Below, piece after piece: positions 1-14,571 of a stretch of 64,000 nt of DNA. How positions within the stretch are numbered: the first letter of the stretch is position 1; each line of letters opens with the position of its first letter. The position numbers were made by a program, and so were the translations under genes. Source of the DNA: Geodermatophilus sp. DSM 44513 (GTDB lineage Bacteria > Actinomycetota > Actinomycetes > Mycobacteriales > Geodermatophilaceae); assembly GCF_032460525.1 (NCBI RefSeq), contig NZ_CP135963.1, positions 1,116,001-1,180,000 on the forward strand, in the 5' to 3' direction. The notes beneath the pieces are model-generated. The model worked only from the letters and a program-made list of their open reading frames with translations, ran no database searches and had not been told where the DNA came from.

Positions 1-449
1 GAGTGGCCGGATGCGTAGCAGCGCTCATGGGCAAACAGCCAGAGTCGACGCCTAGCGGCATCCGCCAGCGGCGCGTGAATGTCCGTGCCAAGCAAGCTCT
101 CGCCCCAAAGTCGCAGTGTCGGTTGAGGGGTTGCCACTGGCAGAGCTTGCGCGGCGGCCAGCAACAGATCGCCAGCCCCGCAGGCGGGGTCGAGGAAGGG
201 CGCCTTGCCGTACGTCTCGATCGCGTCCGTGATGAGGTCCCTGATGGCCAGCCCCGTGAAGAAGGTGCCGCTGCCACGCCGAGTGCTTCGATCCACCAGC
301 TGGCGAAGGGCGGCCGCAGGGCCGTCCGCCAGCGACTCCGCGATGCGGTGCCCGAGCTGATCGCTGTCCGGGTCGACCTGCCGGGCTTCCACTAAGTCGT
401 CCAGAATCTCGACGTAGCTGCGGAAAGCGTCGAACGTCGTCTCGGGCAA
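1..449 (-). CDS. N6-adenine DNA methyltransferase, 5' part (cut by window edge)
   Basis: The reading frame runs leftwards off the window; 149 residues are visible. Residues 60-65 read SGTFFT, the glycine/aromatic motif that precedes motif I in N6-adenine methyltransferases, and residues 87-98 read DPACGAGDLLLA, the SAM-binding motif I; LLGTDIHAPLADAARRRL follows where the acidic motif II is expected. The start is a TTG (447-449) with GGAGGA eight bases upstream, so an ATG-only search would miss it. It diverges from the kinase-receiver-hydrolase operon at 591. The catalytic motif IV lies outside the window, so a restriction-modification, BREX-like or orphan role cannot be decided. Confidence 0.8.
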   Translation of the reverse strand, partial: MPETTFDAFRSYVEILDDLVEARQVDPDSDQLGHRIAESLADGPAAALRQLVDRSTRRGSGTFFTGLAIRDLITDAIETYGKAPFLDPACGAGDLLLAAAQALPVATPQPTLRLWGESLLGTDIHAPLADAARRRLWLFAHERCYASGH

Positions 450-590
450 GGATGCGTTCCTCCAAGGCGAAGGGTGCCTCGTGTGGGCTAGGGGGCCAGC
501 ATTGAGGCCTCGCTCGGACCAGGCCAGCCTAGACTCCAAGCCTGACGGCCGGTCGCAGCGACGCGTCCGCATGGACCCGGTGAGGGACGC

Positions 591-2702
591 ATGTCGACAG
601 AACACATCCGCTTCGCCCCGGACATCCTCCGACGTCTCGGGGAGGAGCTCGTCCCGCATGCTGACCTCGGCATACTCGAACTCGTTAGGAACGCATACGA
701 CGCGGACGCCTCCTACTGCCGCATCAGCCTCGAGGCGGGGGGTGCCAAGGGATCGGCCGTCCTCGTGGCGGATGACGGTGACGGGATGTCGCCCGATGAC
801 ATTCGCAATGGCTGGCTCCTCCTGGGCAAGTCAGGCAAGAGTGGCTCAAGGTTCTCAAGGGCGGGGCGGCAGAAGGTTGGCGAGAAAGGGCTTGGCCGTC
901 TAGCGGCGCTCCGATTGGGCCATAGTGTAATTCTGGCGACCCGACCCCGGTTCGAGGGGGCTGGACTCGAGTATCGACTGCGGATCGACTGGGCGGACTT
1001 CGATGACGCAAAAACGGTCGAAGAGGTGCCGCTCAGCGCGGTTAGTAGTCGGACGGCGGAGTCGCCGGGGACAAATATACGCATTGAAGACCTGCGAGCA
1101 AACATGTCGACTCGAGACGTTGAGCGCCTAGCTCGGTCTCTTGTTCTGTTGATGGGTCCTTTCCCTGACTCGACGGACTTTCGTGTCACCCTTGCAGCGC
1201 CCGGTTTCGACGAGATGGAAAGGCTTGTGCGCGAGTCATACTTTACCGAGTATGATTACCTTGTCGCGGCCACCCTGGATGATGAAGGTCGGGCGTCGGC
1301 AACGCTGAAGGATTGGCGCGGAAACATTGTTGGACGCGCTGGCCACGAGCGCGTTGCGGATCGGCGATTGAAGCGTGACCCCACGTACGTCTACTCGGGC
1401 CCCCAGTCGCGATTTGAAATGTTCTTGTTCAACCTGAGCAAGGCGAACTTCGACGTGCGGCAGTCGTATCAGACCGTCGATGCTGTCAGGCAGTGGTTGA
1501 AAGTCGTAGGTGGAGTGCACCTTTTCCACCGAGGCCTCCGAGTGCATCCTTATGGCGATCCGGGCCATGACTGGCTCGACCTGAACCTGAGTAGGGTAAA
1601 AAATCCGGAATTGAGACCCGGCACTAATACGTCCGTCGGGCGAATTGTCGTTGAGCAGGACAGTGAGTCTCTTGTTCCGAAGACTGACCGCACCGGCTTC
1701 ATCGAAAATGAGACGTTCACTGCTTTGAGACTGTTCGCGCAGGACGTCCTAGATTGGGCCGCGGACGTTAGGTTGAAGCTGCGTGAGGCGGCCCGCCAGG
1801 ACGAGCGCACCGAAAGGGCAACGGACCTCGAAGTAGCGGCGCGCGAGGTCGAAGATGTTTTGAGTAAGCTGCCCTCGGATGTTCGTCCAGGAGTGCGCAA
1901 GGTCGTGTCGACCTATCAAAGCGCGGCTAAGAGTCAACTCAAGTCAGTGTCGGAGGACCTTGAGCTGTATCGATCCCTGGGTACTGTCGGCACGACGTCC
2001 GCAGTTTTTGCGCACGAGACACTGCGGCCGGTTGCTATAATAGAGCAGATGGCGGGATCGCTTGAGCATAGAGCGCGTGCCGATCTGCCGGATCGATTCG
2101 AGCAGCGATATGCCAATCCGCTTGGTCTAATAAGGGGTTCGGTGGCGAGCCTACGCACCTTCGCCGAGCTTCCCCTGCGCATGCTCACTCGAAGTAAGCG
2201 ACGGCCGGGCGCGGTTTGCGTCTACGAGGTGATTGCTGATGTCGCTGAGATGTTCAAACCCTACCTAGATGATGCGTCTGTTGTAATGCGCGTGAAGGCG
2301 CCTCGGCATGATCTCGAGGTCAGGGGCTCAGTTGCTGGCATAGAGGCAATCCTCCTCAATATGCTCGCAAACTCCGTGCATGCCATGAATGCTTCAGGAG
2401 TGCCCAGCGACTCTCGCATCATCGAGATTAGATTGACCAGCAGTTCCGATGAGGTCGTCCTTGAGGTTATGGACAGCGGCCCTGGCATTGTGGGGTTGGA
2501 GCCCGAAGAGGTCTTTCTTCCGGGGCGGACCACACGGGAGGATGGCACTGGGCTCGGATTGACTATCGTAAGGGATGTGGTCCGTGATCTTGGAGGGCGG
2601 TTGGCTGCGGCAAAGAATGGATCATTGGGTGGGGCTCACTTCACGGTGAGGTTGCCGATGGCCGACTCTAGCGATAAGAGCCCGGCTCGGGACTTCCGAT
2701 GA
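591..2702 (+). CDS. Double-GHKL ATPase / histidine-kinase-like protein
   Basis: This 703-residue protein has two ATP-binding domains of the Hsp90/histidine-kinase fold. The N-terminal one has an N-box (E30, N34, D37), DDGDG at 61-65 and a GxxGxG loop at 97-102, as in HATPase_c_3 proteins. The C-terminal one resembles a sensor kinase: an FAHE H-box near residue 475, an N-box near 590, DSGPG near 628 and GTGLGL before the end. No transmembrane segment is evident, so it is probably cytosolic. It overlaps the receiver gene by ATGA and heads a three-gene operon. I infer that it senses a signal, perhaps through its Hsp90-like half, and phosphorylates the receiver. The substrate and trigger are unknown. 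Confidence 0.75.
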   Translation: MSTEHIRFAPDILRRLGEELVPHADLGILELVRNAYDADASYCRISLEAGGAKGSAVLVADDGDGMSPDDIRNGWLLLGKSGKSGSRFSRAGRQKVGEKGLGRLAALRLGHSVILATRPRFEGAGLEYRLRIDWADFDDAKTVEEVPLSAVSSRTAESPGTNIRIEDLRANMSTRDVERLARSLVLLMGPFPDSTDFRVTLAAPGFDEMERLVRESYFTEYDYLVAATLDDEGRASATLKDWRGNIVGRAGHERVADRRLKRDPTYVYSGPQSRFEMFLFNLSKANFDVRQSYQTVDAVRQWLKVVGGVHLFHRGLRVHPYGDPGHDWLDLNLSRVKNPELRPGTNTSVGRIVVEQDSESLVPKTDRTGFIENETFTALRLFAQDVLDWAADVRLKLREAARQDERTERATDLEVAAREVEDVLSKLPSDVRPGVRKVVSTYQSAAKSQLKSVSEDLELYRSLGTVGTTSAVFAHETLRPVAIIEQMAGSLEHRARADLPDRFEQRYANPLGLIRGSVASLRTFAELPLRMLTRSKRRPGAVCVYEVIADVAEMFKPYLDDASVVMRVKAPRHDLEVRGSVAGIEAILLNMLANSVHAMNASGVPSDSRIIEIRLTSSSDEVVLEVMDSGPGIVGLEPEEVFLPGRTTREDGTGLGLTIVRDVVRDLGGRLAAAKNGSLGGAHFTVRLPMADSSDKSPARDFR

Positions 2703-3424
2703 GCGCCGTTCTAGCGCCCGGCGAGTCGGTGGGCGTCCTTGATGACTCGGAAACTGACGCTGCAGCAACTTTCGAGGTACTAATCGACGCGGGTTTCTCG
2801 CCCGTACGGATCCCGCTACTGTCCTCGGTCAAGGATGTGGTGACGAGCGTCCGCGCCAACGCACGCGCACTCGTCGCTGACCACCGCTTGGGTGGTGGTG
2901 CCACTGGTTCCAAAGTCTCGTACTCGGGTGCGGAAGTCGTTGCTTCCTGCTACGCGGAACACCTGCCCGCTATCCTCATCACCACCTGGGCGAACGCGGA
3001 CGAGGCAAGTTCTATACGAAAGTATCGTCGACAAGTCCCGAGCGTCTTGAAGCGAGGTGGGACGACGGGGGCGGAGACCGTACGCGTGGCGCTCGAGCAG
3101 GCGGCACAAGAGGTTAGCGGGACGACTCCTCGTGCTCGACAGGCTTTCCGCACCGTAGTACGAATCGCCCACGTCGAGGGTCAGCCGGGGTCAGACTTGG
3201 AGGTGATAGTCCCCGGGTGGCGGCCCGCTCAGGCCGTCGTTATGTCGCGATCGCTATTGCCGGCTGATCTTGCTCATTGGGACGGCGAGCGTTTGAGGGG
3301 TTCGCGGCTCTTCGCGAAGGTGAACATTTTCGCTGACGAGCCCGGCGATCTGTACTTCGAGGATGTTGAGCTAGCGCCGGAGGATTCCTCGAATTGGCTG
3401 TCCGGCGATCGGAGTATTGATTGA
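2699..3424 (+). CDS. Receiver-domain protein paired with the GHKL kinase
   Basis: Residues 1-130 form a CheY-like receiver: acidic pair D15-D16, phospho-acceptor D61 in ALVADHRL, T95 in ILITT and K118 in VLKRG. All positions needed for phosphotransfer are therefore present. The remaining 110 residues show no DNA-binding helix-turn-helix that I can recognise, so this is probably not a transcription factor. It overlaps the upstream kinase by ATGA and the downstream metallo-hydrolase by TTGA, which implies coupled translation and fixed stoichiometry. The likely role is to relay phosphorylation from the kinase to the hydrolase. That role is inferred from gene order only. Confidence 0.7.
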   Translation: MSAVLAPGESVGVLDDSETDAAATFEVLIDAGFSPVRIPLLSSVKDVVTSVRANARALVADHRLGGGATGSKVSYSGAEVVASCYAEHLPAILITTWANADEASSIRKYRRQVPSVLKRGGTTGAETVRVALEQAAQEVSGTTPRARQAFRTVVRIAHVEGQPGSDLEVIVPGWRPAQAVVMSRSLLPADLAHWDGERLRGSRLFAKVNIFADEPGDLYFEDVELAPEDSSNWLSGDRSID

Positions 3425-4440
3425 CGACCGAAGTGACAGTGCTGGATGTTGGCCACGGCAATGCGGCGGTCGCTCAGGATGGCGATGAGGTGGTCGTCGT
3501 AGATGCTGGTCGGGGTCCCACCTTGCTAGATCAACTAGAGACGCAAGGTATCTTAACGGTTAACCACCTGGTCCTGTCGCATGCCGATGCCGATCACATC
3601 GGCAGTGCGATCGCTTTGCTTTCGAGTCACATCGTCGTTAAGAAACTTTGGTATAACGCAGATGCGCAAAAACAGAGTCAACTCTTCGAAGACTTGAGTA
3701 CGTTGGCGTCGGACAAGAGTGACCGGGGCGAGCTCAATGTATCAATGAGTCTCAACTCGGCCGCCAAAGGTGAAATATCGACCGAAAATCTGTCCTTCGA
3801 AATCATGCACCCAAGTGTCTCGTGGGCGAGCACGGGCCCTCGGGACGCAAGTCATCGCGGTGGCGAGCTGACATCAAACTCGATGTCAGCCGTCGTGCGG
3901 ATTTCAGGCGGCAGTAGGTCTGTCCTGCTTTGCGGCGACATGGACTCTCGAGCCCTACTTCATCTGCAGCAAAGGAATATCGACTTAACGGCAGACGTCC
4001 TAGTCTTTCCGCATCATGGGGGCCATTGCGACGGAGACGATCAAACATTTGCTCGTGAGCTCGCGGGCGCGGTGCAGCCTGCCTCGGTCGTATTCTCACT
4101 GGGCCGCGATGGCTACTCGAATCCACAGCCAGACATCGTCTTGGGCGTACTCGAGGGCTCTCCTGCGAGTCATATCGCCTGTACGCAACTGAGTAAACGG
4201 TGTCATCCCACAGCGGTCGCTCGAGATGGACACCTGGCCTCAGTACCCGCAGCGGGGCGTGGACTCGGCAAGTGCTGCGCCGGTAGCTTGCCGTTTGCTC
4301 CCTTGACTGACTCCCTGTCGTCGCCGGATCTCGTGAGCCATCTTGATTTCGTGAAGGCGAACGTCGACACACCGTTGTGTCTCAATCTTAGACGAGCGCG
4401 GGATATGCTCGACTCGGACGATCCGATAGCTTCCGTATAG
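3421..4440 (+). CDS. ComEC-like metallo-beta-lactamase-fold hydrolase
   Basis: This 339-residue protein opens with a ComEC/Rec2-type strand (VTVLDVGHGNAAV), followed by HADADH at 54-59, the metal-binding HxDxDH motif. Later segments (LLCGDMDSRALL, VLVFPHHGGHCD, FSLGRDGYSNPQPD) match the rest of that subfamily. There are no membrane helices, so only the hydrolase part of ComEC is represented. The TTG start overlaps the receiver stop by four bases; GTG at 3433 is an alternative. Members of this family act on nucleic acids or nucleotides, which makes it the plausible effector of the operon. The actual substrate is not known. Confidence 0.75.
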   Translation: MTTEVTVLDVGHGNAAVAQDGDEVVVVDAGRGPTLLDQLETQGILTVNHLVLSHADADHIGSAIALLSSHIVVKKLWYNADAQKQSQLFEDLSTLASDKSDRGELNVSMSLNSAAKGEISTENLSFEIMHPSVSWASTGPRDASHRGGELTSNSMSAVVRISGGSRSVLLCGDMDSRALLHLQQRNIDLTADVLVFPHHGGHCDGDDQTFARELAGAVQPASVVFSLGRDGYSNPQPDIVLGVLEGSPASHIACTQLSKRCHPTAVARDGHLASVPAAGRGLGKCCAGSLPFAPLTDSLSSPDLVSHLDFVKANVDTPLCLNLRRARDMLDSDDPIASV

Positions 4441-5284
4441 GCTTGCGTGGTCCGTGTAGTCAGGGTAGGCGCCGCGCCTTGAGGCATCGGTGGCAACAGG
4501 TGTGCGCGGCTACGGCGGGCATCGCGGGCCGGGCCATCGTTCGAAGCGTCGCGGCGCCTCTCCCTCGCGGCAAGCAGATTCCGGGTCTGCACCGCGGTGC
4601 TGGCGGTGGCTTGCTTCGGTGAGGCCAGGCGCCTTCGCTGCCGCCGTCCTCCTCCGGAATCGTGAGAACGCCGGTCCGCTCCGGCTCGTCGAGGCGGAGG
4701 CAGGCGAAGCGGGTCGATCACCATGTGTTGTTTCATCGATTACTGATCTCGTTTCAGGAGCTGCGCTAACGACCAGGCATATGTGGCTGCAACGGTAGTT
4801 GCAGTCGACGTACTCCGATCTTGGTCCGCGTTCGTGCGCCGTCGTCCGGTGAAGTGGCGGGCCCCCTGCTCAGCAAGCCCTTTCCTACATCCGCGGACGT
4901 CGGCGAGCGCCGTTAGGTCGGCCTGGCAGATTGGGGGTCAGGGGTTCGAGTCCGGTACCTCTACCCGGACCAGGGCTTTCATCAAGAGGCCCGGTCGATC
5001 CCGTCTCTAGTTGCTGTTCGGCTTGCAGTTGACCCGGGCTTACTCAGCAGCGTCGAGCATGAACTCAACGGTGACCTAGCCATGCAAGCGTCCGTCGGCG
5101 CCCTTATGGATCTTCGACTCATCGTTCGATGCGTGGCTGGCCGGGATTGCCACTACCGTAGCCATCCCGGCCAGAGCGCCGTGGTCACCGCAAGTAGGCC
5201 ATGGATTGCTTGCCAGGATCGGTCGGTGGCTTTGGGGCGCCGTCCTGGCGGTCGGCTCAGTACGGTCGCGGCGGAGGTGAGTCC
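4441..5284 (+). other. Non-coding stretch holding a tRNA-Ala remnant
   Basis: No open frame here has a ribosome-binding site or recognisable protein motifs. The stretch holds a decayed tRNA-Ala 3' half at 4923-4963 and an imperfect hairpin at 4967-4996, and ends with the leader of the beta-helix gene. It probably marks a junction between two acquired segments. Confidence 0.5.
4923..4963 (+). other. Decayed tRNA-Ala(GGC) 3' half, candidate attachment site
   Basis: Read as a tRNA from the anticodon loop onward, CTGGCAG (4923-4929) is followed by a five-base stem strand, a five-base variable loop and the T-arm AGGGGTTCGAGTCC. From position 4954 the T-stem and acceptor no longer pair. The copy at 14338 has the same anticodon loop, variable loop and T-loop, and both are preceded by CGGC. 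This looks like an old attachment-site copy left by a tandem or earlier integration. Confidence 0.5.
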
Positions 5285-6865
5285 ATGACGGTCAACACGG
5301 AGACGGCCCATGCCCGGCTGCGCTACGGGCTCGCGACAGCCGTCCGCGCGGACTGCTCGGCGGCCCGGGACCCCGCCAACCTGACAGTTATCCGCTCCCT
5401 GACGGCTATCCGCGACGACGCGTGGATGGACCGGACCATCCACGCCGACGTACTCCGCGGGCTGCTTGTTGAGGGCGCCGCCGAGGCGGGGCAGCGCTTT
5501 GAGCTCGTTGGAGCGCGCGTCGTCGGGGTACTCGACCTGCAGGGGCTCACCTTGCCCCGGATTCTTTCCTTGCGCCGATGCCTCTTGGACCGCGTCGAGC
5601 TAGGACACGCAATTGCTGGCCGGCTCGATCTCTCGGGATGCCATGTCCGAGACTCGGTCGCCGCCCCGGATCTCCGGGCCGCCGGCCAGGTCTCGCTGCG
5701 CGGGATGACCGTCGAGGACGGAATCAACTTGGGAAGTGCACGGATCGATGGCACGGCGGATCTCCGAGATGCGAGGCTGCGCAGCCGTGAGCCGGACGCG
5801 CTGATCTTGACTGGTGCCCGCATCGGCGGAAGCGTGCGACTCGACGGCGCTTACATCGATGGCGTGATCGCCGCCATGGGCGTCCGGATCGACAACGGGC
5901 TTGTCTTGAATGGCGCGACGGTCGAGGGGCGCCGCCGCCCCGTCGCGGAGTCGCAAACTTCGGTCACGCCGCGATTCGGCAATCCTGCACCGACAACGTG
6001 GGCTCTTCTTGCGGACCACGCGATCATCGGAGGCGCAGTCAATCTGTCCCTTCGCCCGCACGCTCTTGAACGACGGGCCACTTGGTCCACTAACTCCGTC
6101 AGAATCAACGGAGGGATCGCATTCTTCGCGGCGACGATCGGCGGCAACGTTGTAGCTGATTACGCCTACCTGCGCGCCGAGCGCGGCTACGCACTGACCC
6201 TTGAGACGGCGACCGTCGGCGGGGCCCTCCTGCTTCGCGGCGCCACCATCAAGGGCGGGGTTCGGCTCTTCTCTGCGAAGGTGACCGCGGCCATCGAGTG
6301 CGACGACGGGGCTTTCGTGGGTGGCCCCCTTACCGCCGCCATAGATGCCCAGTGGTGCACTGTCGACGGACCGGTCCTCCTCCGCAACGGCTTCGATGCG
6401 GAGGGAGGTGTCGACGCCCTACGCGCGAGCATCGGTGGCAACCTGGAGTGTAAGGGCGGTCACTTCTACGGACGCCCTCCCGCCAAACTGTCCAAGGATG
6501 ATCTTGGGAAGCCGGCCCTCAATCTCAGAGACGCGACCGTCAACGGGAATGTGTTCCTGACCCATCCCTTCACTGCCAAGGGTGCGGTCGTGCTGCGCGG
6601 ATCCGATGTCTCAGGCAGCGTCAATGCCGTGGGCGGATCTTTCGAGAACCGCGGTGACGTGGCGCTCGATGTTGCCGGGCTGCACATCGAACGGGAGCTC
6701 GACCTCACGGGGGTCACCATCATGGGAGACCTTGACCTATCCCACGCACAGGTCACCAGCTTCTTCGACGACCGGCACAGCTGGTTCCGCAGCAACGTGA
6801 GCGCCGGAGCAACGACCGCCCAAGCTGAAACGCCGCCCGCTCATCTGAAGCTCGAGGGTTTCTAG
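5285..6865 (+). pseudogene. Membrane-associated beta-helix protein, N-terminal part (amber-interrupted)
   Basis: This 526-codon segment consists largely of short repeats with the pattern GARI.G..DL..A.., predicting a right-handed beta-helix like those of pentapeptide or bactofilin-type proteins. The ATG at 5285 follows GGAGGTGAG and is preferred over an upstream in-frame ATG. The frame ends at a TAG (6863-6865), but the same frame continues immediately (YESLQSPDLSWKDRVEWL...) into the conserved membrane domain. In actinobacterial relatives I know, both parts form one protein, so this is an interrupted gene unless the TAG is read through. Function is unknown. Confidence 0.65.
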
Positions 6866-7429
6866 TACGAGTCCTTGCAAAGCCCCGACCTGTCGTGGAA
6901 GGACCGCGTGGAATGGCTGCGGTTGCAACGCCGCGCTGCTCTGCCGCAACCCTTCCTGCAGCTGGCCGCTGCTTACTGGGCCGGCGGGAGGGAGCGCGAG
7001 GCCAGAAAAATCCTAATGGCGCGCCACAACGAGGGCCTTCGACTCCGGAACATTGGGCGGCAACTGTTGCGCATCACCGTTGGCCACGGCTATGAGCCTC
7101 TCCGCGCGCTGCTGCTGGCATTCGCGATCTTCAGTGCCGGGTGCGTCGTCTTCAACTACGGCGCTCGCCACGAACTTCTGGTCCCATCCCGAACCACAAC
7201 GGCGGTCAGCTCCAACTGCGACGCCAAGACTTATCCGTGTCTGTCGCCCTATGTCTACAGCCTGGATACATTGCTGCCGGTCATCAATCTGCGCCAGCGG
7301 GACCACTGGGTGCCTGACCCCGAGGACGGCCAATGGGTCGCAGTCTTTGCCTGGACGTCGACCGTCCTTGGCTGGGTTCTCGGGCTACTGGTGGTCGCGG
7401 GGTTTAGTGGGCTTGTCCGCCGCGAGTAG
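6866..7429 (+). pseudogene. Membrane-associated beta-helix protein, C-terminal membrane part
   Basis: This is the in-frame continuation of the preceding segment after its TAG codon; a TTG at 6875 could restart translation as a 184-residue product. The sequence has a helical linker with WLRLQR and QLAAAYWAGGREREARKILMARH, then two hydrophobic segments (about residues 78-96 and 158-177 of the restart product) around an extracytoplasmic loop with VINLRQRDHW. Because the linker normally joins the beta-helix to the membrane anchor, the split should separate the repeat domain from its anchor. Confidence 0.6.
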
Positions 7430-7588
7430 CAGTGCCCGGGCGCGTCGAACGGCATAGGGGACGGGGCAGGCTTCCGTGCCCCGACGTGTCTGACCGCTGC
7501 ATCGACCGGTACATGGCACCGCCCGTCGCATTAGATTGCGCCGCCCCGCCGGGGTTCTGGGTCCAGAGGGCTCGGCGGCATTGCCGGG

Positions 7589-8146
7589 GTGGCAGCGCAG
7601 GACGAGGCCTCGGGTGACGATGTCGCTGTGACGCAGCAGGAGCGCATCGACCAGGACGTCCTGCGTCGCCGCGGTCAGGTTGCGGTGCTGTCCGGCTTGG
7701 CAGCGGGCGACGACGTCGATGACCAAATTGCGGCAGCAGCTCCCAGCCACGTGCCCGGTTGGCTTGCGCCGGATCTGGCCATCCTCGAGTTGGCCGTCAC
7801 GGCGCTCGACCTCGCGTGTCCGGCTGGCGCTGGGCCGCTGGAGTACGAGGGGCTGTGCGAGCGCTACCTGCCGGAGGTGACGTTCCGCGGCCGCGTCGAG
7901 CTTCGCAACAGCCAATACGCCCTGTACGCCGCCGGCTGCATGCGCGGCTGCATTTGCGGCGGCCTGCAGCCCGACATATTGAGCGACGCCGGCTGGTGGG
8001 GAACCCCGCTGTGGCAGTACGCCGTCTGCGCCGTCGTCATCTACAGCCGTGCCGCGGCCGAGCGCCTCTCGGTCACGGCGGAGGAGATCGCTCGGCGGAT
8101 TGCCGCTCGGCACAACCTCGAGCTCACCGCGAGCCGCCCGGCGTGA
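7589..8146 (+). CDS. Hypothetical protein
   Basis: I do not recognise this 185-residue protein. Its C-terminal two-thirds look genuinely coding: RVELRNSQYALYAAGCMRGCICGGLQPD, then GWWGTPLWQYAVCAVVIYSRAAAERL and a charged helical tail. The cysteine-rich CMRGCICGG segment is the only distinctive motif. The start is uncertain: GTG at 7589 gives the full length, and GTG at 7628 is possible; neither has a strong ribosome-binding site. It lies between the interrupted beta-helix gene and a stretch of decayed sequence, so it may itself be a survivor of a larger unit. Confidence 0.5.
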   Translation: MAAQDEASGDDVAVTQQERIDQDVLRRRGQVAVLSGLAAGDDVDDQIAAAAPSHVPGWLAPDLAILELAVTALDLACPAGAGPLEYEGLCERYLPEVTFRGRVELRNSQYALYAAGCMRGCICGGLQPDILSDAGWWGTPLWQYAVCAVVIYSRAAAERLSVTAEEIARRIAARHNLELTASRPA

Positions 8147-8266
8147 CCCATTCATGACCCACGCAGTGGAAAAAGATGGGACATAAGAGGATCAGACCGG
8201 GGCTTTCGGAAGGCCCTTCAGAACTCCTCCAGTATGCCTACGGGGCATCTGACGTGCGGTTTCACG

Positions 8267-8346
8267 TGGAGCGGGTGACCGGGATCGAATCGGCATGGCC
8301 AGCTTGGAAGGTCGGATCGGGCTCTGCTGGTCAGCCGCCTATGCGC
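8267..8346 (-). other. tRNA-Gly(TCC)-like remnant
   Basis: On the minus strand the 3' half reads as tRNA-Gly: anticodon loop CTTCCAA, stem strand GCTGG, T-loop TTCGATC, acceptor strand CACCCGC, then TCCA. The upstream half keeps a D-arm-like GGCTGACCAGCAGAGC, but the anticodon stem has extra bases and the 5' acceptor strand (GCGCATA) does not pair with CACCCGC. It is therefore a non-functional tRNA relic, or a half-tRNA attachment site with a decayed 5' side. Confidence 0.55.
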
Positions 8347-8675
8347 TTCCTGGAGGTCCGCTCCTGACGCACGTGCCCTATCGCGTCCTACAGCTTGCAA
8401 CCCGGAGAGTTCCAGACCGTCGGTGGGTGACCTGTGGCCGCGCTGAGCATGGCGACGATGGCGTGGGCAATCTGGGCGCCGCGGACGTCGGCAGCTTGCT
8501 GGTACAGGAACGCGGCGACGGGGGAGGAGCGGACGAGAGGCCGGGTGAACTGGTTGCAGCGGCTGCTCGCCCAGCCGTCACAACGAGTTCCGCTACCTCA
8601 GATGCAAGACGTGTGTGGCACTTGATCTCGGTCGGTCTCCAGTAGCGATCGGGAGCCGGATGGCCCGGTGGAGCG

Positions 8676-9084
8676 AGCACCGGGATCGACATCGAGGCCC
8701 CGGTCGAGGGGGTCTGGGAGGTGCTGCGCGACGTCAAGCGGTGGCCGGAGTGGGCGCCGACGGTCACCTGTGTGCAACGCCTCGACCAAGCGCCGCTCGC
8801 CGTCGGGTGCCGGTCCGCGCGAAGCAGCCCCGGATCCCCTAACCGAGTACGTCGTGACCGAGCTGGAGTCGAGCCGCTCGTTCACCCGGGTGGCCACCGG
8901 CCCGGGGCGTCCGCACCACCGTTCGGCACCCGCTGGAGGGGCTCGCGAGCCGCGGCACACGCGTGACGCTGACGGTGGAACAGGCCGGCCCGTGCACGTG
9001 ATGATGGGACGGTCTACCGCCGCCTCACCGATCGGTACCTGACCGCTGAGACCGAAGGGATCGAGGCGAGGAGCCAGGGACGAA
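8676..9084 (+). pseudogene. SRPBCC-family protein pseudogene (several frameshifts)
   Basis: One frame reads IDIEAPVEGVWEVLRDVKRW followed by PEWAPTVTCVQRLDQAPLAVG, the start of a polyketide-cyclase/SRPBCC domain. The homologous continuation (PLTEYVVTELESSRSFTRVATGPG) is in another frame, and the final helix (VYRRLTDRYLTAETEGIEAR) in a third. At least three indels are needed to rebuild a protein of normal length (about 140 residues). It sits in the most decayed part of the island. Confidence 0.65.
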
Positions 9085-9331
9085 TGTGGCGTCCGGCCGG
9101 CGCCCGAGACCCGGGGGGCACGAGGTGTGTTGGAGGTCGATCTTGGAAATTCAGGTTTCCAGGTGGGCTCAAGAACGCCCCCTCGTCGCTTCGAGTGGTT
9201 CATCGCGGTCGGCACGCACACCCGTGCCGAGGGCGACGAGGCGCCGAAGCCCTGGACCGAGCTTGCCTTCCCGGATACGCCTCCTCCTCGTGCCGCGGGG
9301 GAGCCGGATCCGTTCTGTCCACCCCAGGGCT

Positions 9332-9685
9332 ACGCCACTGAGGCGGTACCAGGCGAACTGGCTGCCGCACCTCGGACCGTCGTTCTTCACAAAGTTCTTC
9401 TATTACGTCGACGCCGATGGCACGTCCGGCGATGTGGGACGCGCCTTGATTCTCGACCAGTTCGTGGCTATCGGACTCAACTACCTGGAGGGCTGGGGCC
9501 TCAGTGAGACGGGGCCTTGGCCGGTTGGCGTATACGAGCGCTGGTTGGACTACGCCCAGAATCAGGCAGCGGAGCCTGACGGGCCAGGAAGCCCCGCTGT
9601 CCGGACGGACGCGGTTGAGATGGCGGTGTTTTGGCTCGGGCGGCGGGTGGCTGCCGCCCCCAAGCAGGGGCGGTCGGAGCCGTAG
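9332..9685 (+). pseudogene. C-terminal fragment, possibly an OGG-fold-like hypothetical
   Basis: The frame contains a coherent protein-like segment (YQANWLPHLGPSFFTKFFYY, then GRALILDQFVAIGLNYLEGWGL and a final helix AVEMAVFWLGRRVAA). This resembles actinobacterial proteins annotated as an OGG-type glycosylase fold, an assignment from memory and uncertain. Upstream in the same frame the sequence becomes arginine/serine-rich and unlike protein, and no start with a ribosome-binding site is visible, so the N-terminal half has probably been lost. Confidence 0.4.
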
Positions 9686-9759
9686 TCCTTCCGCCCAGGC
9701 GGACGGGCACCTCGTCCGTGACTAGCATCGGGCTGACGAGCGAGTCGAGGGGGTTGTCG

Positions 9760-10101
9760 GTGGATCGAAACGAGAAGAAGCGGACCAGGGACAAAATCGG
9801 ACAGCATCTGGATGTCTCTGGTACACGCCTGACTGACCACGAAGCCAGCTTCCTGAGTGCTCTAATCGACGACTACGACGAGACGTATCGGGGCAAGAGC
9901 GAGACCCATCGATCCAGCCACGATGGCTGGAGTTCGGACGGAAAGTTCACTCGTACGGAAGAGTGGACGGACACCTTCACCGATGACATCGGTATTCGTC
10001 AGGACTACAGTTACCACGACGACGACGGCCAGAGCGGGCAATCTTCTACCGAGATCAGAGACGCTCGAGGCGTCCTCAACTGGTTCAGAGATCGCCGCTA
10101 A
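9760..10101 (+). CDS. Small hydrophilic hypothetical protein
   Basis: This 113-residue protein is rich in charged and polar residues, with a C-terminal half dominated by D, S, T and Y (EEWTDTFTDDIGIRQDYSYHDDDGQ) and no membrane segment. GTG at 9760 is chosen because AGGGGG ends six bases upstream; the frame is open further upstream but without such a site. I recognise no family. It is separated from the nucleotide operon at 10466 by a 364-bp gap, so co-transcription is unlikely. Confidence 0.5.
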   Translation: MDRNEKKRTRDKIGQHLDVSGTRLTDHEASFLSALIDDYDETYRGKSETHRSSHDGWSSDGKFTRTEEWTDTFTDDIGIRQDYSYHDDDGQSGQSSTEIRDARGVLNWFRDRR

Positions 10102-10465
10102 CTAAGGTAAGCGCTGTGCGCTATTCCGGCAGCGGAGCCGGCTTTCTGGCAGCGCCATAGATCTGCTGCACGACCTTGACCCACATTGAGCGCGCCATTG
10201 CGACGCCCTGTCTCCTTCGGAAGATCCTGGCGTGGGATGCCCCCGACGCACACCGTTGCACCATGGGGACAGCCCTTGACGACTTGGGCTACTGACTCTG
10301 TGCGTCGTCTTCCTACACAATGCGTTACGACCGTCCGATTAGGCAATCGGGTCAGGCCGTCTCGTAACGTGCTCATCGAGCTTCGCCGACCCGGTCACTC
10401 CCTCAGGCGCTAGTCTTCTCGGACTTTGCTCGCAGGCTTAGGTTAAGAGCGCGGGGGACTGGATA
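10102..10465 (+). other. Intergenic region upstream of the nucleotide operon
   Basis: No credible gene is seen. TAGGTT at 10439-10444 is a plausible -10 hexamer for the operon that starts at 10466, and GGGGGA lies about eight bases before that ATG. No convincing -35 box is visible, so the promoter call is weak. Confidence 0.3.
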
Positions 10466-11131
10466 ATGAATATTGCCTTCGCCGGGTTGACGGCCGCTGG
10501 AAAAACCACGCACGCAAAAGTGCTGGCCGAGCAGTTGAACTACGAATACGTTTCAGCAACCGAAATCATCGCCGACATACTTGGCCTGACGCAAGCCGCT
10601 GCACCTCGGCTCTGGTTCACGAAGTTGGGCGAGATCAACGCAATGCGTGAGGCAAGTGACTCCCTCGACGAAGAGCTCGAATCGCGGCTGATACAAAAGG
10701 CCAGAAGTAGCGACCATCTGGTCTTGGACACCTGGGCGATGCCATGGATCAGTGAGAGTCCGGCGGTCAACGTATGGATCGAGTCGAGCTTCGTGACCCG
10801 AACCTGGAAGTGCTATGTGTCCCAGGGCTGTTCGCCGGCCTTGGACATGCTGGAATGCTCCGCCCTCGTGGCCGATAAGGACGAGACGACTCGTCAAATC
10901 TTCATGCGGCGGCATGGCTTTGACCTGTTCACCGATAAGGGACCGTTCCAAGTGATCGTCGACAATACGACCCTGCTTTCGGCACCGACACATGAAGCGT
11001 GTCAGCGTGGTATTGCTGCGTTCGCGCCGCAGGTCCTCGATGCGGTGACCACGGCACTCAAGCGTCCCTCGCGCTTGCACCCACGGCCGACGACAACAGA
11101 GGAAGACCTTCTCGGCGGCTCTGTTGCCTGA
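10466..11131 (+). CDS. P-loop nucleotide kinase-like protein
   Basis: A Walker A loop, GLTAAGKTT, lies at residues 7-15 of 221, followed by LAEQLNYEYVSATEI, the pattern of cytidylate/dNMP-type kinases where the base-recognition helix follows the P-loop. VLDTWAMPW fits the next strand. The fold therefore suggests phosphorylation of a nucleotide or nucleoside, but no family-specific base-selecting motif is clear. It is the first gene of a four-gene operon and overlaps the RelA/SpoT gene by eight bases. It could also be an AAA_33-type kinase acting on RNA or a small molecule. Confidence 0.7.
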   Translation: MNIAFAGLTAAGKTTHAKVLAEQLNYEYVSATEIIADILGLTQAAAPRLWFTKLGEINAMREASDSLDEELESRLIQKARSSDHLVLDTWAMPWISESPAVNVWIESSFVTRTWKCYVSQGCSPALDMLECSALVADKDETTRQIFMRRHGFDLFTDKGPFQVIVDNTTLLSAPTHEACQRGIAAFAPQVLDAVTTALKRPSRLHPRPTTTEEDLLGGSVA

Positions 11132-12428
11132 CTCGCGCCAGTCGCCGGAATTCGCGCAGACATTGTTCCGCCTTTATGCCGAACGTGCAGCGCAACACGA
11201 AAGCGCCCTGCGTAGGGTGACCGACAGTCTGCAGGCGATAACCCGGGATCGAACCTGTTTCACCGTCAGCCAGCAACGCCGCATCCGCGTGGAGACAGGG
11301 CGAATCAAGGAGCCTGCCCGCCTACTCGCCAAGGCGCAGCATAGTAAGTATGCCGAGGTCATCAAGGACCCGGAGGACGTTTTCCGCGTGCTTACCGACG
11401 TCGTCGGAACACGGGTTACATGCAATACGGTCCAGGACGTGCTCTGTATGGTCGAGGCCATCAAGCAGTCGAAGACCCTGGCTCTGCCGGGTCACCTCCC
11501 GCCTGAGAAGTGCGCGGAGGACTACATCACCAATCCAAGGCAGAGCGGATACCGCGCGGCCCACCTGTTAGTGAGCGTTGACGTGCCGGCTGGCTCGGAC
11601 TATTCCGCAGTCGTGTGCGAGATACAAGTCCGCACCCTTCTGCAGCACGCCTGGGGGGAGTTGACACATGAGGATACGTTCAAGCCTGAGGTGAAAGTTC
11701 CGGGCCTCGTTACGACGCTTAGCAAGCGCCTGGCTACGGCGTTAGCTGTTCTTGATGAAATCGCCCAAGATTTGCGCGATGAGCTCGCTAAGATCGAAGA
11801 CGAAGTCGCGCAGCCGGTGGAGATCCACAAGCCGACTCCAGGGACCGGGGCCCGCACCAACGGGAAACTGTTGCGCGCTGTCTTCGCTGAAGTCATGGGC
11901 CGAGAACTCGCGGTGGCCAACCCAGAACTGGAGCGGGCCCGCTCCCTGTTTGGAGCGGCGCCCTTGCTGAACCGCGACCAGGTATGGGCGGCGATCAGCG
12001 GGACGCGGGACTTATCGAGCTCCGTCTTCGCGAAGCACCCGGTGCTAGTTCCTGACAGCGAGTTCTTGTTTGCCGCGGCTGCCTGGCCTCTCGGTCCTAA
12101 CGCAGTCGAGGGGCGCCTGACCGATGTGGCGACACGGCTGGAGGCGCGCATAGATGAGATGCATGAGTTTGAGGAACTCTACGCAGCCGGGCACACACAT
12201 GTCGGGACGGTCGTACGGGTGAAGCCGCGCTACTCGCTAGTGCAGCTGACAAGCGGGGATACGGCGACGATGTCGGCGAGGCATATCGAGGCAGGCGGAA
12301 CGTCCTACGTCAATCTCGAGGACTACGTGAGCCCGGGGTCGACGATTCGTGTCGAAGTGGTGAACGCCGACGCGGATCGGCGGAGGATTGAAGTGCGGCC
12401 AGCCGACGGCTTGGCTCGGCTTCGGTGA
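11124..12428 (+). CDS. RelA/SpoT-domain protein with C-terminal OB-like domain
   Basis: Residues 50-215 match the (p)ppGpp-synthetase nucleotidyltransferase fold: GRIKEPARLLAK, the metal-binding DVVGTRV, DYITNPRQSGYRAAHL and CEIQVRTLLQHAWGELTHE, with the catalytic acidic positions present. A middle helical region follows, and the last 80 residues (GTVVRVKPRYSLVQL...TIRVEVVNADADRRRIEV) look like an S1/OB nucleic-acid-binding domain, an unusual addition. There is no HD hydrolase domain. It is much longer than small alarmone synthetases (200-260 residues). The TTG start lies inside the kinase gene. It may make an alarmone, or pyrophosphorylate tRNA or a nucleotide as toxSAS enzymes do. Confidence 0.75.
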   Translation: MPDSRQSPEFAQTLFRLYAERAAQHESALRRVTDSLQAITRDRTCFTVSQQRRIRVETGRIKEPARLLAKAQHSKYAEVIKDPEDVFRVLTDVVGTRVTCNTVQDVLCMVEAIKQSKTLALPGHLPPEKCAEDYITNPRQSGYRAAHLLVSVDVPAGSDYSAVVCEIQVRTLLQHAWGELTHEDTFKPEVKVPGLVTTLSKRLATALAVLDEIAQDLRDELAKIEDEVAQPVEIHKPTPGTGARTNGKLLRAVFAEVMGRELAVANPELERARSLFGAAPLLNRDQVWAAISGTRDLSSSVFAKHPVLVPDSEFLFAAAAWPLGPNAVEGRLTDVATRLEARIDEMHEFEELYAAGHTHVGTVVRVKPRYSLVQLTSGDTATMSARHIEAGGTSYVNLEDYVSPGSTIRVEVVNADADRRRIEVRPADGLARLR

Positions 12429-13135
12429 GGGATGGAGGGCCCTCGGTCGACTCCACGCTGACCGTCGACGAGGCCAAGCGTGAGCAGGTGGCACTTCGAC
12501 GCCAGTTGCGCGTAGAACCAATGGACTTCCGAAGTGTGCGCTTCGCCCTGGCTATCGGCGTTTCATACTCGGTCCGCGACAAGGAGGCGGTGGCGGTCGC
12601 GATGCCAATGCGGTTAGACGGAACGCCAATTGATGAATCGCACATCATAGTCTCTCGACAGGCGTCGGACTTTCCGTACATCCCCGGCATGTTCGTGTAC
12701 AGAGAAGGGCCGGCAATTTGTTCCCTCCTGAACGGGCTGCCGGGCTTGCCGAGCCTGCTCGTCTTTGACGCCCAGGGGACCGCGCATCCTCGTCGGTTCG
12801 GTCTTGCCGCCCACATCGGCGTGCTGTACGACGTTCCCACGATCGGCCTTACACGGAAGCTATTAATCGGTCGCGCGCCGGCCCTGGCCGAGACCGACGG
12901 CGCGAGGAGCTTCATCAAGGACCGTGAAGGTAAGGTCGTTGGCCTGGCTTGCCGCTTACGGTCCCGCTGTGAGCCGATCTATCTTTCGCCGGGGCATCGT
13001 GCTGATATGTCGTCGCTTGTTGGCTACGTCGAGGGCATAAAGTCAGTTCGTAGCTGTTTCCCTGCGGCGCTGGCCTTAGTGCATGAACGGGCGAACCACC
13101 TCGCCAACACCGGACGAACAACCGATGGCTTCTAG
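12425..13135 (+). CDS. Endonuclease V homologue
   Basis: The 236-residue protein follows endonuclease V along its length: FPYIPGMFVYREGPA (with the active-site Glu), LLVFDAQGTAHPRRFGLAAH (Asp and His of the active site), VPTIGLTRKLLIG, and YLSPGHRADMSSLVGYVEGI. Family members cut DNA or RNA one base 3' of (deoxy)inosine. The first catalytic Asp, found in GADVGF of E. coli and GVDLSF of Thermotoga, appears to be Gly here (IGVSYS), so activity may be reduced or altered. The GTG start overlaps the RelA/SpoT stop as GTGA. It is the only copy in the window. Confidence 0.85.
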   Translation: MRDGGPSVDSTLTVDEAKREQVALRRQLRVEPMDFRSVRFALAIGVSYSVRDKEAVAVAMPMRLDGTPIDESHIIVSRQASDFPYIPGMFVYREGPAICSLLNGLPGLPSLLVFDAQGTAHPRRFGLAAHIGVLYDVPTIGLTRKLLIGRAPALAETDGARSFIKDREGKVVGLACRLRSRCEPIYLSPGHRADMSSLVGYVEGIKSVRSCFPAALALVHERANHLANTGRTTDGF

Positions 13136-13151
13136 CTCCAGGAGGATGATG

Positions 13152-13706
13152 ATGGCTGACAAGCTGACACTGATTACGGGGAATGCCGGAAAGGCGCGAG
13201 AGTTGGGGGACCTCCTTGGCTTTCCCCTTGCGCACGAGAAGTTGCGACTGACTGAGAAGCAGGCTTTGGATGTAGCCGAGGTGGCTCAAGATAAGGCCGC
13301 TCAGGCCTACGACCAGTTGCAGCGGCCGGTTCTGGTTGACGACACGGGCCTTACGGTTCTGGCTTGGAATGGCCTTCCGGGCGCTCTCATTGCATGGTTC
13401 CTAGATGCTGTCGGCAACGACGGAATCCTTTCGATGGCAGCCTCGCTCGGTGATCGACGGGCTTCGGTAACTACCGCGCTAGGGTATGCGGACGAGAATG
13501 GGCCGCAGGTGTTCACTGGCACGCTGTGGGGAGCGTTGGCGGACCAGCAACGGGGCTCCAACGGTTTCGGCTACGACACGATATTCATCCCCGAGGGAAA
13601 TCCAAAGACGTTCGCGGAACTGAGCGCAGAACAGAAGAATGGAATCTCCATGCGAAAGCTGGCTGCCGAGAAGCTGAGGCAGCAGATCGGTGAGCGCTTC
13701 GTCTGA
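13152..13706 (+). CDS. HAM1/RdgB-family non-canonical purine NTP pyrophosphatase
   Basis: The 184-residue enzyme has TGNAGKARELGDLL near its start, VDDTGLTV (the ADDSGL substrate loop), FTGTLWG, GSNGFGYDTIFIP and FAELSAEQKNGISMR, all family signatures. Relatives hydrolyse dITP, ITP, XTP or dUTP-like nucleotides to the monophosphate. AGGAGG at 13140-13145 leaves six bases to the third of three ATG codons, at 13152, which I choose. It closes the operon with kinase, RelA/SpoT protein and endonuclease V. The chromosome also has an ordinary rdgB at 54689, so this copy is an accessory one, and it lacks the EALLKA-type segment of that protein. Confidence 0.85.
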   Translation: MADKLTLITGNAGKARELGDLLGFPLAHEKLRLTEKQALDVAEVAQDKAAQAYDQLQRPVLVDDTGLTVLAWNGLPGALIAWFLDAVGNDGILSMAASLGDRRASVTTALGYADENGPQVFTGTLWGALADQQRGSNGFGYDTIFIPEGNPKTFAELSAEQKNGISMRKLAAEKLRQQIGERFV

Positions 13707-14333
13707 GGACACCGTCGGGCCCGAAACGAGTACTGGGTCGCCATGTCGACCCTCGGGGCGGGCAGCGTCCTCTTCTGCCGTGCGCGGCTGGACTGCGGAC
13801 TGATGCCGCGCCCGTTGGCCGTTTGGGGGGACGCCGGATATGCAATCTTCGCCTTCCGTGGCGTCCTGCAGCTCGCCGGTCACGAGGTCGGTGTACCGAG
13901 GTCGGTACCGGGAGGCGTGTTCGTAGGGGTAGGCGATACCTACCTGCTGGTCAACGGCTTCGACGGCGGCGCCACGGCGGGTGCTCGGCGGATCTCCCGT
14001 TCTGGACGTCGCGACCGCCTCAGCCCGACGGAGTGACGGGACGGATCGCCGGGCCGTCCTCGGCTGATCGGAGGAGGTGCCGGGGGACGGCTGGATGGAC
14101 GTCGACGCCTGCAGTTCCTTAAGTGATGCCATCGAACTTGAGCGCTGGGAGCCAACCTTCGGTGCTTCGCATCTGAGCGCGTGTGCTCAGCGTGGCCAAG
14201 GGATGGCGATCGTGGTTGCAGTCGTGGTTGCAGTTGGGGCCGTACGCGGTTGTGCGCCGACATTCGTAGTCGTCCGTAATTGCACGTCAGCGGCTTACGG
14301 AACGGCAGTGAACTGCTGCGAACGCGATCATGA
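13707..14333 (+). other. Right-hand end of the island, no confident gene
   Basis: Open frames exist on both strands, but none combines a ribosome-binding site with recognisable protein features. Two direct copies of a GTGGTTGCAGT-like unit lie near 14211-14232. The stretch ends at the tRNA-Ala half-gene. Confidence 0.4.
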
Positions 14334-14337
14334 CGGC

Positions 14338-14379
14338 CTGGCAGTGTGGGGGTCAGGGGTTCGAATCTCCTCAGCTCCA
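14338..14379 (+). other. tRNA-Ala(GGC) 3' half, right attachment site of the island
   Basis: The sequence reads exactly as a tRNA from the anticodon loop: CTGGCAG (anticodon GGC), stem strand TGTGG, variable loop GGGTC, T-arm AGGGG/TTCGAAT/CTCCT and acceptor CAGCTCC plus discriminator A. The bases before it (ACGGC) do not pair with TGTGG, and no D-arm is present, so only the 3' half exists. Breakage in the anticodon loop is typical of tyrosine-integrase attachment sites. A chromosomal terminator and a sharp rise in G+C follow. Confidence 0.75.
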
Positions 14380-14390
14380 CCCCGATGACC

Positions 14391-14418
14391 AGGCCGTCCT
14401 CCCTCGGGAGGGCGGCCT
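14391..14418 (+). terminator. Hairpin terminator of the tRNA-Ala locus
   Basis: The arms AGGCCGTCCTCC and GGAGGGCGGCCT pair almost perfectly around a CTCG loop, beginning 12 bases after the tRNA discriminator. No T-run follows, which is common in high-G+C actinobacteria. Confidence 0.7.
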
Positions 14419-14571
14419 GAGTCGTCTCCGGTTGCAGGTGGACCGGCTCCACCCGCCGGCAGCAGGCTCCCCGTCCGGTCGGTGGCCTCGCGGCCGAACC
14501 CCGGCAGGACGTGGAATCGCGGCACCTCCGTCACCCCGCGCCGGACGGACCGGGATCACGGGTGCAGCGGC

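Follow-up and report, generated by a model that had tools for sequence, protein, structure and literature searches.

A kinase, RelA/SpoT-type, endonuclease V-like and HAM1-family operon on an integrative island of Geodermatophilus: a possible module for a non-canonical nucleotide

Why should an actinobacterium carry, packed head to tail, the genes for a P-loop kinase, a RelA/SpoT-type synthetase, an endonuclease V homologue and a HAM1/ITPase-family pyrophosphatase? The question is raised by a 64,000-nucleotide stretch of Geodermatophilus sp. DSM 44513 (contig NZ_CP135963.1, positions 1,116,001 to 1,180,000; hereafter the window), whose genome (G000) is one contig of 4.63 Mb. We call the four genes KIN, REL, ENDV and HAM; coordinates of these and the other features are collected in the table below. 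All four open reading frames (ORFs) lie on the plus strand, KIN and REL overlapping by 8 bp and REL and ENDV by 4 bp (GTGA), and HAM follows ENDV after 16 bp if the ATG at 13152 is used, which is most likely its start given the AGGAGG just upstream. The original prediction had described these overlaps and the gap, had taken the four genes as one unit and had assigned all four families to nucleotide handling, and on each of these points the ORF coordinates and the Pfam assignments, all four of which exceed their cut-offs, agree with it. The observation of four genes in one operon is thus confirmed. Tentatively, and with rather limited confidence, we read this operon as an accessory, island-borne module for making and controlling a non-canonical nucleotide, probably against phage or other mobile DNA.

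The operon sits on an integrative, mobile island. The GC content is 58.5-66.2% over window positions 1-14000 vs 69.5-80.6% beyond, and an intact tRNA-Ala(GGC) gene is found some 23 kb left of the operon, outside the window. Next to it, an ORF encoding a Phage_integrase domain (3.9e-23, residues 179-362) runs in the opposite direction; its open frame extends through the tRNA gene, leaving the true end of the integrase ORF unsettled. To the right of the operon, a 103-bp stretch is a direct repeat of this tRNA-Ala region, 96 of the 103 columns being identical, and the element measured from repeat to repeat is about 23.1 kb, the operon being the gene group nearest its right end. In the left part of the island, which contains a second integrase-like gene (1.3e-20), the GC content is 65-74%, and the island is therefore a patchwork. 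A mobile island is thus supported. As to the island bounded by tRNA of the original prediction, ARAGORN found no tRNA at the operon's place in the window, though the tRNA-Ala(GGC) gene to the left is partly repeated at the island's right end.

The same gene order was found once more. At one contig end of Streptomyces chryseus (G394), the species-wide KIN scan described below found KIN followed by REL (L069), and at another contig end of this genome (L125) lie the remaining part of REL, then EndoV, then HAM. The REL proteins of the two organisms are 63% identical in the N-terminal half and 41% in the C-terminal part, the HAM proteins are 57% identical over residues 54-202, and the S. chryseus EndoV gene is split by a frameshift into two frames, 50% and 57.5% identical to ENDV. 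Both contigs break inside REL at CTAG and continue into matching inverted ends (25/26 by hand count), a pattern suggestive of an insertion sequence that duplicated 4 bp of its target. Judged by its interrupted REL and frameshifted EndoV, the S. chryseus set is decaying; since it has the order KIN-REL-EndoV-HAM, the four-gene set predates the Geodermatophilus genome.

Is the operon, then, one member of a larger group? KIN, EndoV and HAM were absent from 12 neighbourhoods of REL relatives (tblastn), and KIN, not REL, was therefore used as the marker. The KIN family occupies 12 places in 9 of the 394 genomes of the class; strong matches were found in 2 of 295 Streptomyces genomes, five more having weak P-loop matches only, and KIN is present in 2 of 192 genomes from the phylum of a Saccharibacteria metagenome-assembled genome (MAG). 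The species-wide scan, in which an alignment of KIN proteins served as query, gave 25 loci. These were sorted into the operon types listed in the table by searching the fetched loci with the operon proteins (tblastn) and examples with Pfam. At all 12 places in the class, a HAM1, MazG or NUDIX gene lies within about 3 kb of KIN, where chance would give about 3% per place (estimated for 25 NUDIX, 2 MazG and about 2 HAM1 genes per genome of about 6.8 Mb; the nine KIN genomes have 13-33 NUDIX and 0-4 MazG matches each), the 12 places not being independent, as they represent four operon types. In the species-wide scan, such a gene accompanies KIN at 22 of the 25 loci, if L069 is counted across the break between its contigs and the fragment of L092 is included, and none is found near L079, L081 and L090. 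The operon types track the kinase phylogeny. In a tree of 27 kinases, types B, D and E and the five Frankiaceae members of type C form supported clades, the Actinopolyspora type C kinase stands apart, and type A was not resolved.

Table. Coordinates and composition of the features discussed (G and L numbers denote genomes and loci).
Feature	Sequence	Position	Strand	Description
KIN	window	10466-11131	+	221 aa P-loop (d)NMP-kinase-like protein; Pfam Cytidylate_kin2 (PF13189)
REL	window	11124-12428	+	RelA/SpoT-type synthetase, TTG start; Pfam RelA_SpoT
ENDV	window	12425-13135	+	endonuclease V homologue; Pfam Endonuclease_5
Shine-Dalgarno-like AGGAGG	window	13140-13145	+	precedes likely HAM start
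HAM	window	13152-13706	+	HAM1/ITPase-family pyrophosphatase; Pfam Ham1p_like; longer ORF from 13083
Island right end	window	14338-14440	.	103-bp direct repeat; tRNA-Ala(GGC) anticodon arm to 3' end and sequence behind
tRNA-Ala(GGC), intact	genome	1107164-1107238		
tRNA-Ala region aligned with the repeat	genome	1107195-1107297		
RdgB of the host	genome	1170701-1171267		second HAM1 gene, in the window near 54.7 kb
Three-gene group	window	591-4440	+	genes with 4-bp overlaps
Glycosylase-like ORF	window	9086-9685	+	probably a truncated gene
N6-methyltransferase-like ORF	window; L148	3-659; 19120-19998	-	left edge of window
RelA/SpoT + S1 protein	L034 (G266)	9472-10575	-	outside any KIN operon
Type A	window operon; S. 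chryseus			KIN-REL-EndoV-HAM
Type B	L057, L063/L078, L064, L070, L071			KIN - adenosine deaminase - small P-loop protein - U317 - HAM; five genomes: G088, G100, Pseudofrankia asymbiotica, Saccharopolyspora elongata, Actinocrispum wychmicini
Type C	L058-L062, L065, L068			KIN - B12-radical-SAM - AlkZ-like glycosylase - MazG; seven places: G132 (two), P. asymbiotica (two), Frankia torreyi, Frankia sp. CIT1, Actinopolyspora righensis
Type D	L072, L073, L074			KIN-HAM only; three MAGs; kinases of L072 and L073 identical
Type E	L066, L067, L085, L087, L088, L089, L091			NUDIX - KIN-like kinase - two proteins of ~220 and ~420 aa; seven loci
Type V	L080, Micromonospora craterilacus	2591-4833		prokaryotic viperin - KIN - NUDIX
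KIN	S. populi			NUDIX 2.2 kb away, other strand
KIN	Actinokineospora			radical-SAM gene as company
KIN	two MAG contigs			without HAM1/MazG/NUDIX partner
KIN fragment, 41 residues	L092			NUDIX 1.8 kb away
KIN	L155, Patescibacteria genome			two convergent NUDIX genes

Around KIN, the operon partners are exchanged from type to type. The type B adenosine deaminase (Pfam, 1.8e-24) has its HxH, HLGE, GHG and TDDP motifs conserved in the alignment, and the type V viperin, directly behind which KIN lies, falls into the PADLOC class 'associated with kinases' (4e-21), the NUDIX protein of that operon matching at 9e-21. Because type B has an adenosine deaminase in the place of REL and EndoV, together with a protein of a nucleotidyltransferase-OB type, and because KIN adjoins a viperin, the earlier idea that the operon revolves around inosine gains some weight. 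The protein in question, U317, has no Pfam family; its five sequences share G-S-S/A-M-x-G...K-D-V-D-F-V, which resembles a nucleotidyltransferase-like signature, and its C-terminal barrel matches the OB folds of RPA, Stn1, SSB and lysyl-tRNA synthetase (Foldseek, best E 1.4e-4). The structure model was used for this barrel only, where its predicted local distance difference test (pLDDT) score is 61-89 by blocks against a mean of 55. RelA/SpoT domains are members of the wide nucleotidyltransferase superfamily. Types A and B would thus parallel each other, judging from motifs and the modelled barrel, in that each sets a nucleotidyltransferase-type enzyme with an OB-like domain beside KIN, HAM and an inosine-related protein, EndoV in one and adenosine deaminase in the other. 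The AlkZ-like glycosylase of type C matches its family at 3.1e-28. The two larger proteins of type E have no Pfam match in the single example scanned, and the identification of the third protein of that type as a HIT protein was dropped for the same lack of a match.

HAM matches Ham1p_like at 2.3e-44 (151.9 bits vs a cut-off of 22.5) with the core motifs present in the alignment. It is 51-62% identical to the HAMs of other KIN operons and 33% identical to the host's own RdgB. The HAMs of types A and D read SMR where type B and the host RdgB read SHR, a change that may alter the choice of base. Over the 394 genomes, KIN is present in 9, HAM in 11 and both in 4, and the two genes are found together above chance, as the Fisher test gives a p of 3.9e-5 with kinship ignored. 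Within KIN operons, KIN identity correlates with HAM identity (r 0.77; 45 pairs from 10 operons). A stricter rule, under which the two genes would never occur apart, was rejected, since KIN is missing from the surroundings of 9 of the 14 close HAM relatives in the class. These nine loci (L139-L147) are from Frankiaceae, and their HAMs are 56-62% identical to the window HAM; one adjoins MazG (L140) and one a U317 remnant (L145).

KIN has a P-loop reading G-L-T-A-A-G-K-T-T-H and matches Cytidylate_kin2 at 1.1e-8 (35.9 bits vs a cut-off of 28). Against the NCBIfam equivalog for archaeal (d)CMP kinase, it reaches 1.7e-9 and 37.9 bits, below the cut-off of 102.1, and the Cytidylate_kin2 domain is therefore not taken to assign a substrate. 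Among PADLOC models, it matches pVip-kinase (2.6e-5, residues 3-170), VakA (4.9e-7, residues 2-39) and, very weakly, PDC-M51B (0.012). G000 holds no second KIN and no second EndoV match genome-wide.

ENDV, the endonuclease V homologue, matches Endonuclease_5 at 2.4e-40 and keeps the Glu of YREGP, the Asp of FDAQG, the His of SPGH and the PYIP wedge motif, and it reads AIGVSYS where the Thermotoga maritima protein (2w35) has GVDLSF, so that Gly stands in place of D43. In T. maritima numbering, D43, E89 and D110 are what we take to be the metal-binding triad, and of these ENDV keeps E89 and D110 and has lost D43. Gly occupies this position in both type A EndoVs, of the window and S. chryseus, while Asp does so in all six others of the set; K139 is Arg in both type A proteins as well. 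The deposited sequence of 2w36 has Ala at the D43 position. In endonuclease V, D43 is required for cleavage and not for binding. Because Gly replaces this metal-binding residue in both copies, ENDV is probably an inosine binder that does not cut, rather than a nuclease.

REL consists of a synthetase domain at about residues 50-225, a helical middle and an S1/OB-like C-terminus at about 355-428. RelA_SpoT matches over its cut-off (4.9e-17), and the core aligns with solved small alarmone synthetases, YjbM among them (best 6.8e-14), keeping the conserved D (TDVVGTR), Y/H (SGYRAAH) and E (EIQVRT) motifs. With the aligned residues presumably having the roles known for this family, the catalytic motifs of REL look intact. 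The earlier description of a RelA/SpoT-OB protein stands for its first half and is weaker for its second, as the tail matches Pfam S1 at E=0.031, under the cut-off, and NCBIfam S1-type models down to 0.0058. Its tail does align, though, with that of L034, a RelA/SpoT protein of similar plan, the S1 match of which reaches 22.3 bits vs a cut-off of 22. As to whether the active sites are dead, which the original prediction had raised for both proteins, the motifs of REL are kept, and it is ENDV that lacks its metal-binding Asp. RelA-type matches are common, occurring in 108 of the 394 class genomes, and a paralogue elsewhere in G000, 43% identical to REL, has the other three genes not beside it. 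Partial matches to REL occur in 27 phage and 35 plasmid records, all below 60% identity and none covering 80%, and no REL relative was confirmed in viral contigs. Some toxic small alarmone synthetases modify the 3' end of tRNA.

From these families a working scheme can be proposed. KIN would phosphorylate a non-canonical purine monophosphate, for which an inosine-type nucleotide is a guess, and HAM would convert the triphosphate back to the monophosphate, the pair setting the level of the odd triphosphate; that KIN raises and HAM lowers it follows from the families. ENDV, with an inosine pocket but without the metal site of the nuclease, could read inosine-bearing nucleic acid or act as a regulator. 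REL would then be the output enzyme, a pyrophosphate transferase that either modifies RNA by way of its S1-like tail, for example at the 3' end of tRNA, or makes an alarmone, and its action would halt growth. Its likeliest purpose would be to stop phage or other mobile DNA once nucleotide metabolism is disturbed.

The closest known logic to such a scheme is that of Kongming, in which KomA is an adenosine deaminase, KomB is HAM-like and KomC is an NAD+-depleting effector: according to a review, the deaminase, the phage's kinase and host kinases generate dITP, and this signal binds the HAM-like protein, which switches on the effector (PMC12948488). The operon shares with Kongming a HAM-like protein, a nucleotide kinase step and inosine chemistry, and type B shares in addition an adenosine deaminase next to kinase and HAM. 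It differs in having a built-in kinase where Kongming uses that of the phage, a RelA-S1 protein for the NAD+-depleting effector and an EndoV homologue, and in type A having no deaminase. The resemblance of HAM to KomB (chain 8zsg_V, 1.5e-22) is at the family level only. Neither an adenosine deaminase nor an NAD+-depleting effector domain was found by Pfam in the four genes and nine further window ORFs, and membership of the operon in Kongming was rejected on this account. The type B set, as a side observation, resembles the Kongming parts with a kinase built in.

Other known systems are related part by part. KIN is similar to the kinase portion of the pVip-kinase fusion among the prokaryotic viperins (pVip, pVip-kinase, VakA), and in L080 KIN lies behind a pVip, whereas the window operon has no viperin-like radical SAM enzyme by Pfam or PADLOC. 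REL shares its synthetase domain and motifs with the small alarmone synthetases and toxSAS, and differs in its S1-like C-terminus and its place beside KIN, EndoV and HAM. ENDV shares with Nfi the fold family, most of the active site and the PYIP motif, except for the Gly at the metal-binding Asp. HAM has the family and core motifs of the RdgB/HAM1 ITPases generally, from which its subgroup differs in occurring with KIN or alone in Frankiaceae and in the SMR of types A and D. In PDC-M51, a two-protein candidate for phage defence in PADLOC, for the name of which no paper was found in the literature searched, the type C radical-SAM protein matches PDC-M51A at 2.2e-9; the match of KIN to the second component is weak as well, and the PDC-M51A-like gene lies outside the window operon. 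In keeping with the original prediction, no described system of the four-gene composition was found, nor did anything with this composition appear under endonuclease V phage defence, viperin kinases or PDC-S33; this is weak evidence, as most subscription papers and preprints fell outside the search.

How far does the evidence favour defence? For it speak the viperin and PDC-M51A among the partners of KIN, the match of KIN to the pVip-kinase model and the location on an island. The defence-like neighbours that had been noted are only weakly upheld, as PADLOC matches of the ORFs in window 1-10101 are weak (best 1.8e-9). Several results weigh against our reading. The expectation that KIN lies in defence islands found no support: at E<=1e-10, 96 neighbours of 11 KIN loci gave 7 PADLOC model rows, including one pPIWI-RE set, while 96 of the 116 listed neighbours of 9 control loci gave 45 rows, many of them from redundant models, so that no defence-gene excess appears at KIN loci in this small control, drawn from other loci of the same bacterial family. 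No KIN relative was found in the phage, plasmid or viral collections searched. The four families do occur in the same order in S. chryseus, but complete type A sets are very rare, the scans giving these two, one of them broken, and no third. The nearest curated models of KIN are CMP kinases and not purine kinases; HAM is matched better by archaeal and human ITPases than by KomB, and only 5 of its 14 close relatives in the class are in KIN operons; and the AlphaFold model of REL (mean pLDDT 51.7) is too poor for a fold search. Lastly, KIN-HAM alone stands beside housekeeping genes (CTP synthase, RuvC/YebC, by sequence inspection) in Patescibacteria MAGs, an arrangement that fits metabolism.

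This last arrangement also favours a different, though unlikely, explanation, in which the operon is a cassette for sanitation and repair of the nucleotide pool and has no antiviral role: KIN and HAM would clean deaminated nucleotides, ENDV would mark inosine in nucleic acid and REL would link the damage to the stringent response. HAM1, EndoV, MazG, NUDIX and AlkZ-like proteins are all classical sanitation or repair families, the host has no other EndoV, and no defence enrichment was seen around KIN. However, the host already owns RdgB, an EndoV serving repair would be expected to keep its catalytic Asp, the set is on an integrative island, KIN is as rare in the class and in Streptomyces as reported above, and one of its partners is a viperin.

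Rather improbable is a plain RelA-type toxin system, of the toxSAS kind acting by abortive infection, with REL as the toxin, an antitoxin encoded by one of its neighbours and an inosine theme that is incidental. The alignment of REL with small alarmone synthetases, its kept motifs and the translational coupling of the operon agree with this, as does a match of the PADLOC candidate PDC-S33 (1.2e-18, REL residues 89-177); the latter, however, spans the shared synthetase core only (positions 92-174 of the 349 in the model). Against it, no known antitoxin family was found by Pfam in the four genes and the nine further window ORFs scanned, we know of no HAM or EndoV acting as an antitoxin, and KIN and HAM recur together without REL. 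Least probable is a cluster for a nucleoside metabolite, antibiotic or signal, built by kinase, deaminase, B12-radical-SAM and NUDIX enzymes with glycosylase, MazG or HAM protecting the producer, for although type C joins a B12-radical-SAM protein with an AlkZ-like glycosylase, of a family known from azinomycin self-resistance, the hosts are mainly metabolite-rich actinobacteria, and type E has two conserved Pfam-less proteins, with a methyltransferase also nearby in Lentzea, the four operon genes include no carrier-protein, PKS/NRPS (polyketide or non-ribosomal peptide synthesis) or export gene, type A lacks any enzyme that would build a base or sugar, and KIN is present in Patescibacteria MAGs of just 0.6-0.8 Mb.

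The low-GC part of the island that falls in the window holds further genes. In the three-gene group near the window's left end, the first gene encodes two HATPase domains (9.7e-23, 7.6e-19), the second a 241 aa protein without Pfam match, and the third a metallo-beta-lactamase fold (1.3e-10); in PADLOC, this third protein matches RTasMBL and LmuA weakly. The C-terminal half of the glycosylase-like ORF matches positions 111-201 only of the OGG-like 8-oxoguanine glycosylase model (3.5e-18). At the left edge, the N6-methyltransferase-like ORF (Pfam 7.9e-5, PADLOC mad2 1.4e-8) has no Pfam match in the part that lies left of the window.

To return to the reading of the operon as a module for a non-canonical nucleotide, a bolder extension, in which we place little confidence, would make KIN the marker of modular antiviral nucleotide systems: kinase and NTP pyrophosphatase would together determine how much of an odd nucleotide is present, and an exchangeable third component (viperin, B12-radical-SAM, deaminase with nucleotidyltransferase-OB, or RelA-S1) would make or use it. 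In type A, a nuclease-dead EndoV would read inosine and release or steer the RelA-S1 toxin, inosine being the alarm for abortive infection. If the reading of the operon is true, this actinobacterial operon family would extend the nucleotide-based antiviral principle of viperins and Kongming to systems that carry their own kinase and pyrophosphatase, and would offer a natural, conserved case of an endonuclease V turned from nuclease to inosine reader. It also raises the question of whether an ITPase-kinase pair may set the threshold that a RelA-type enzyme answers.

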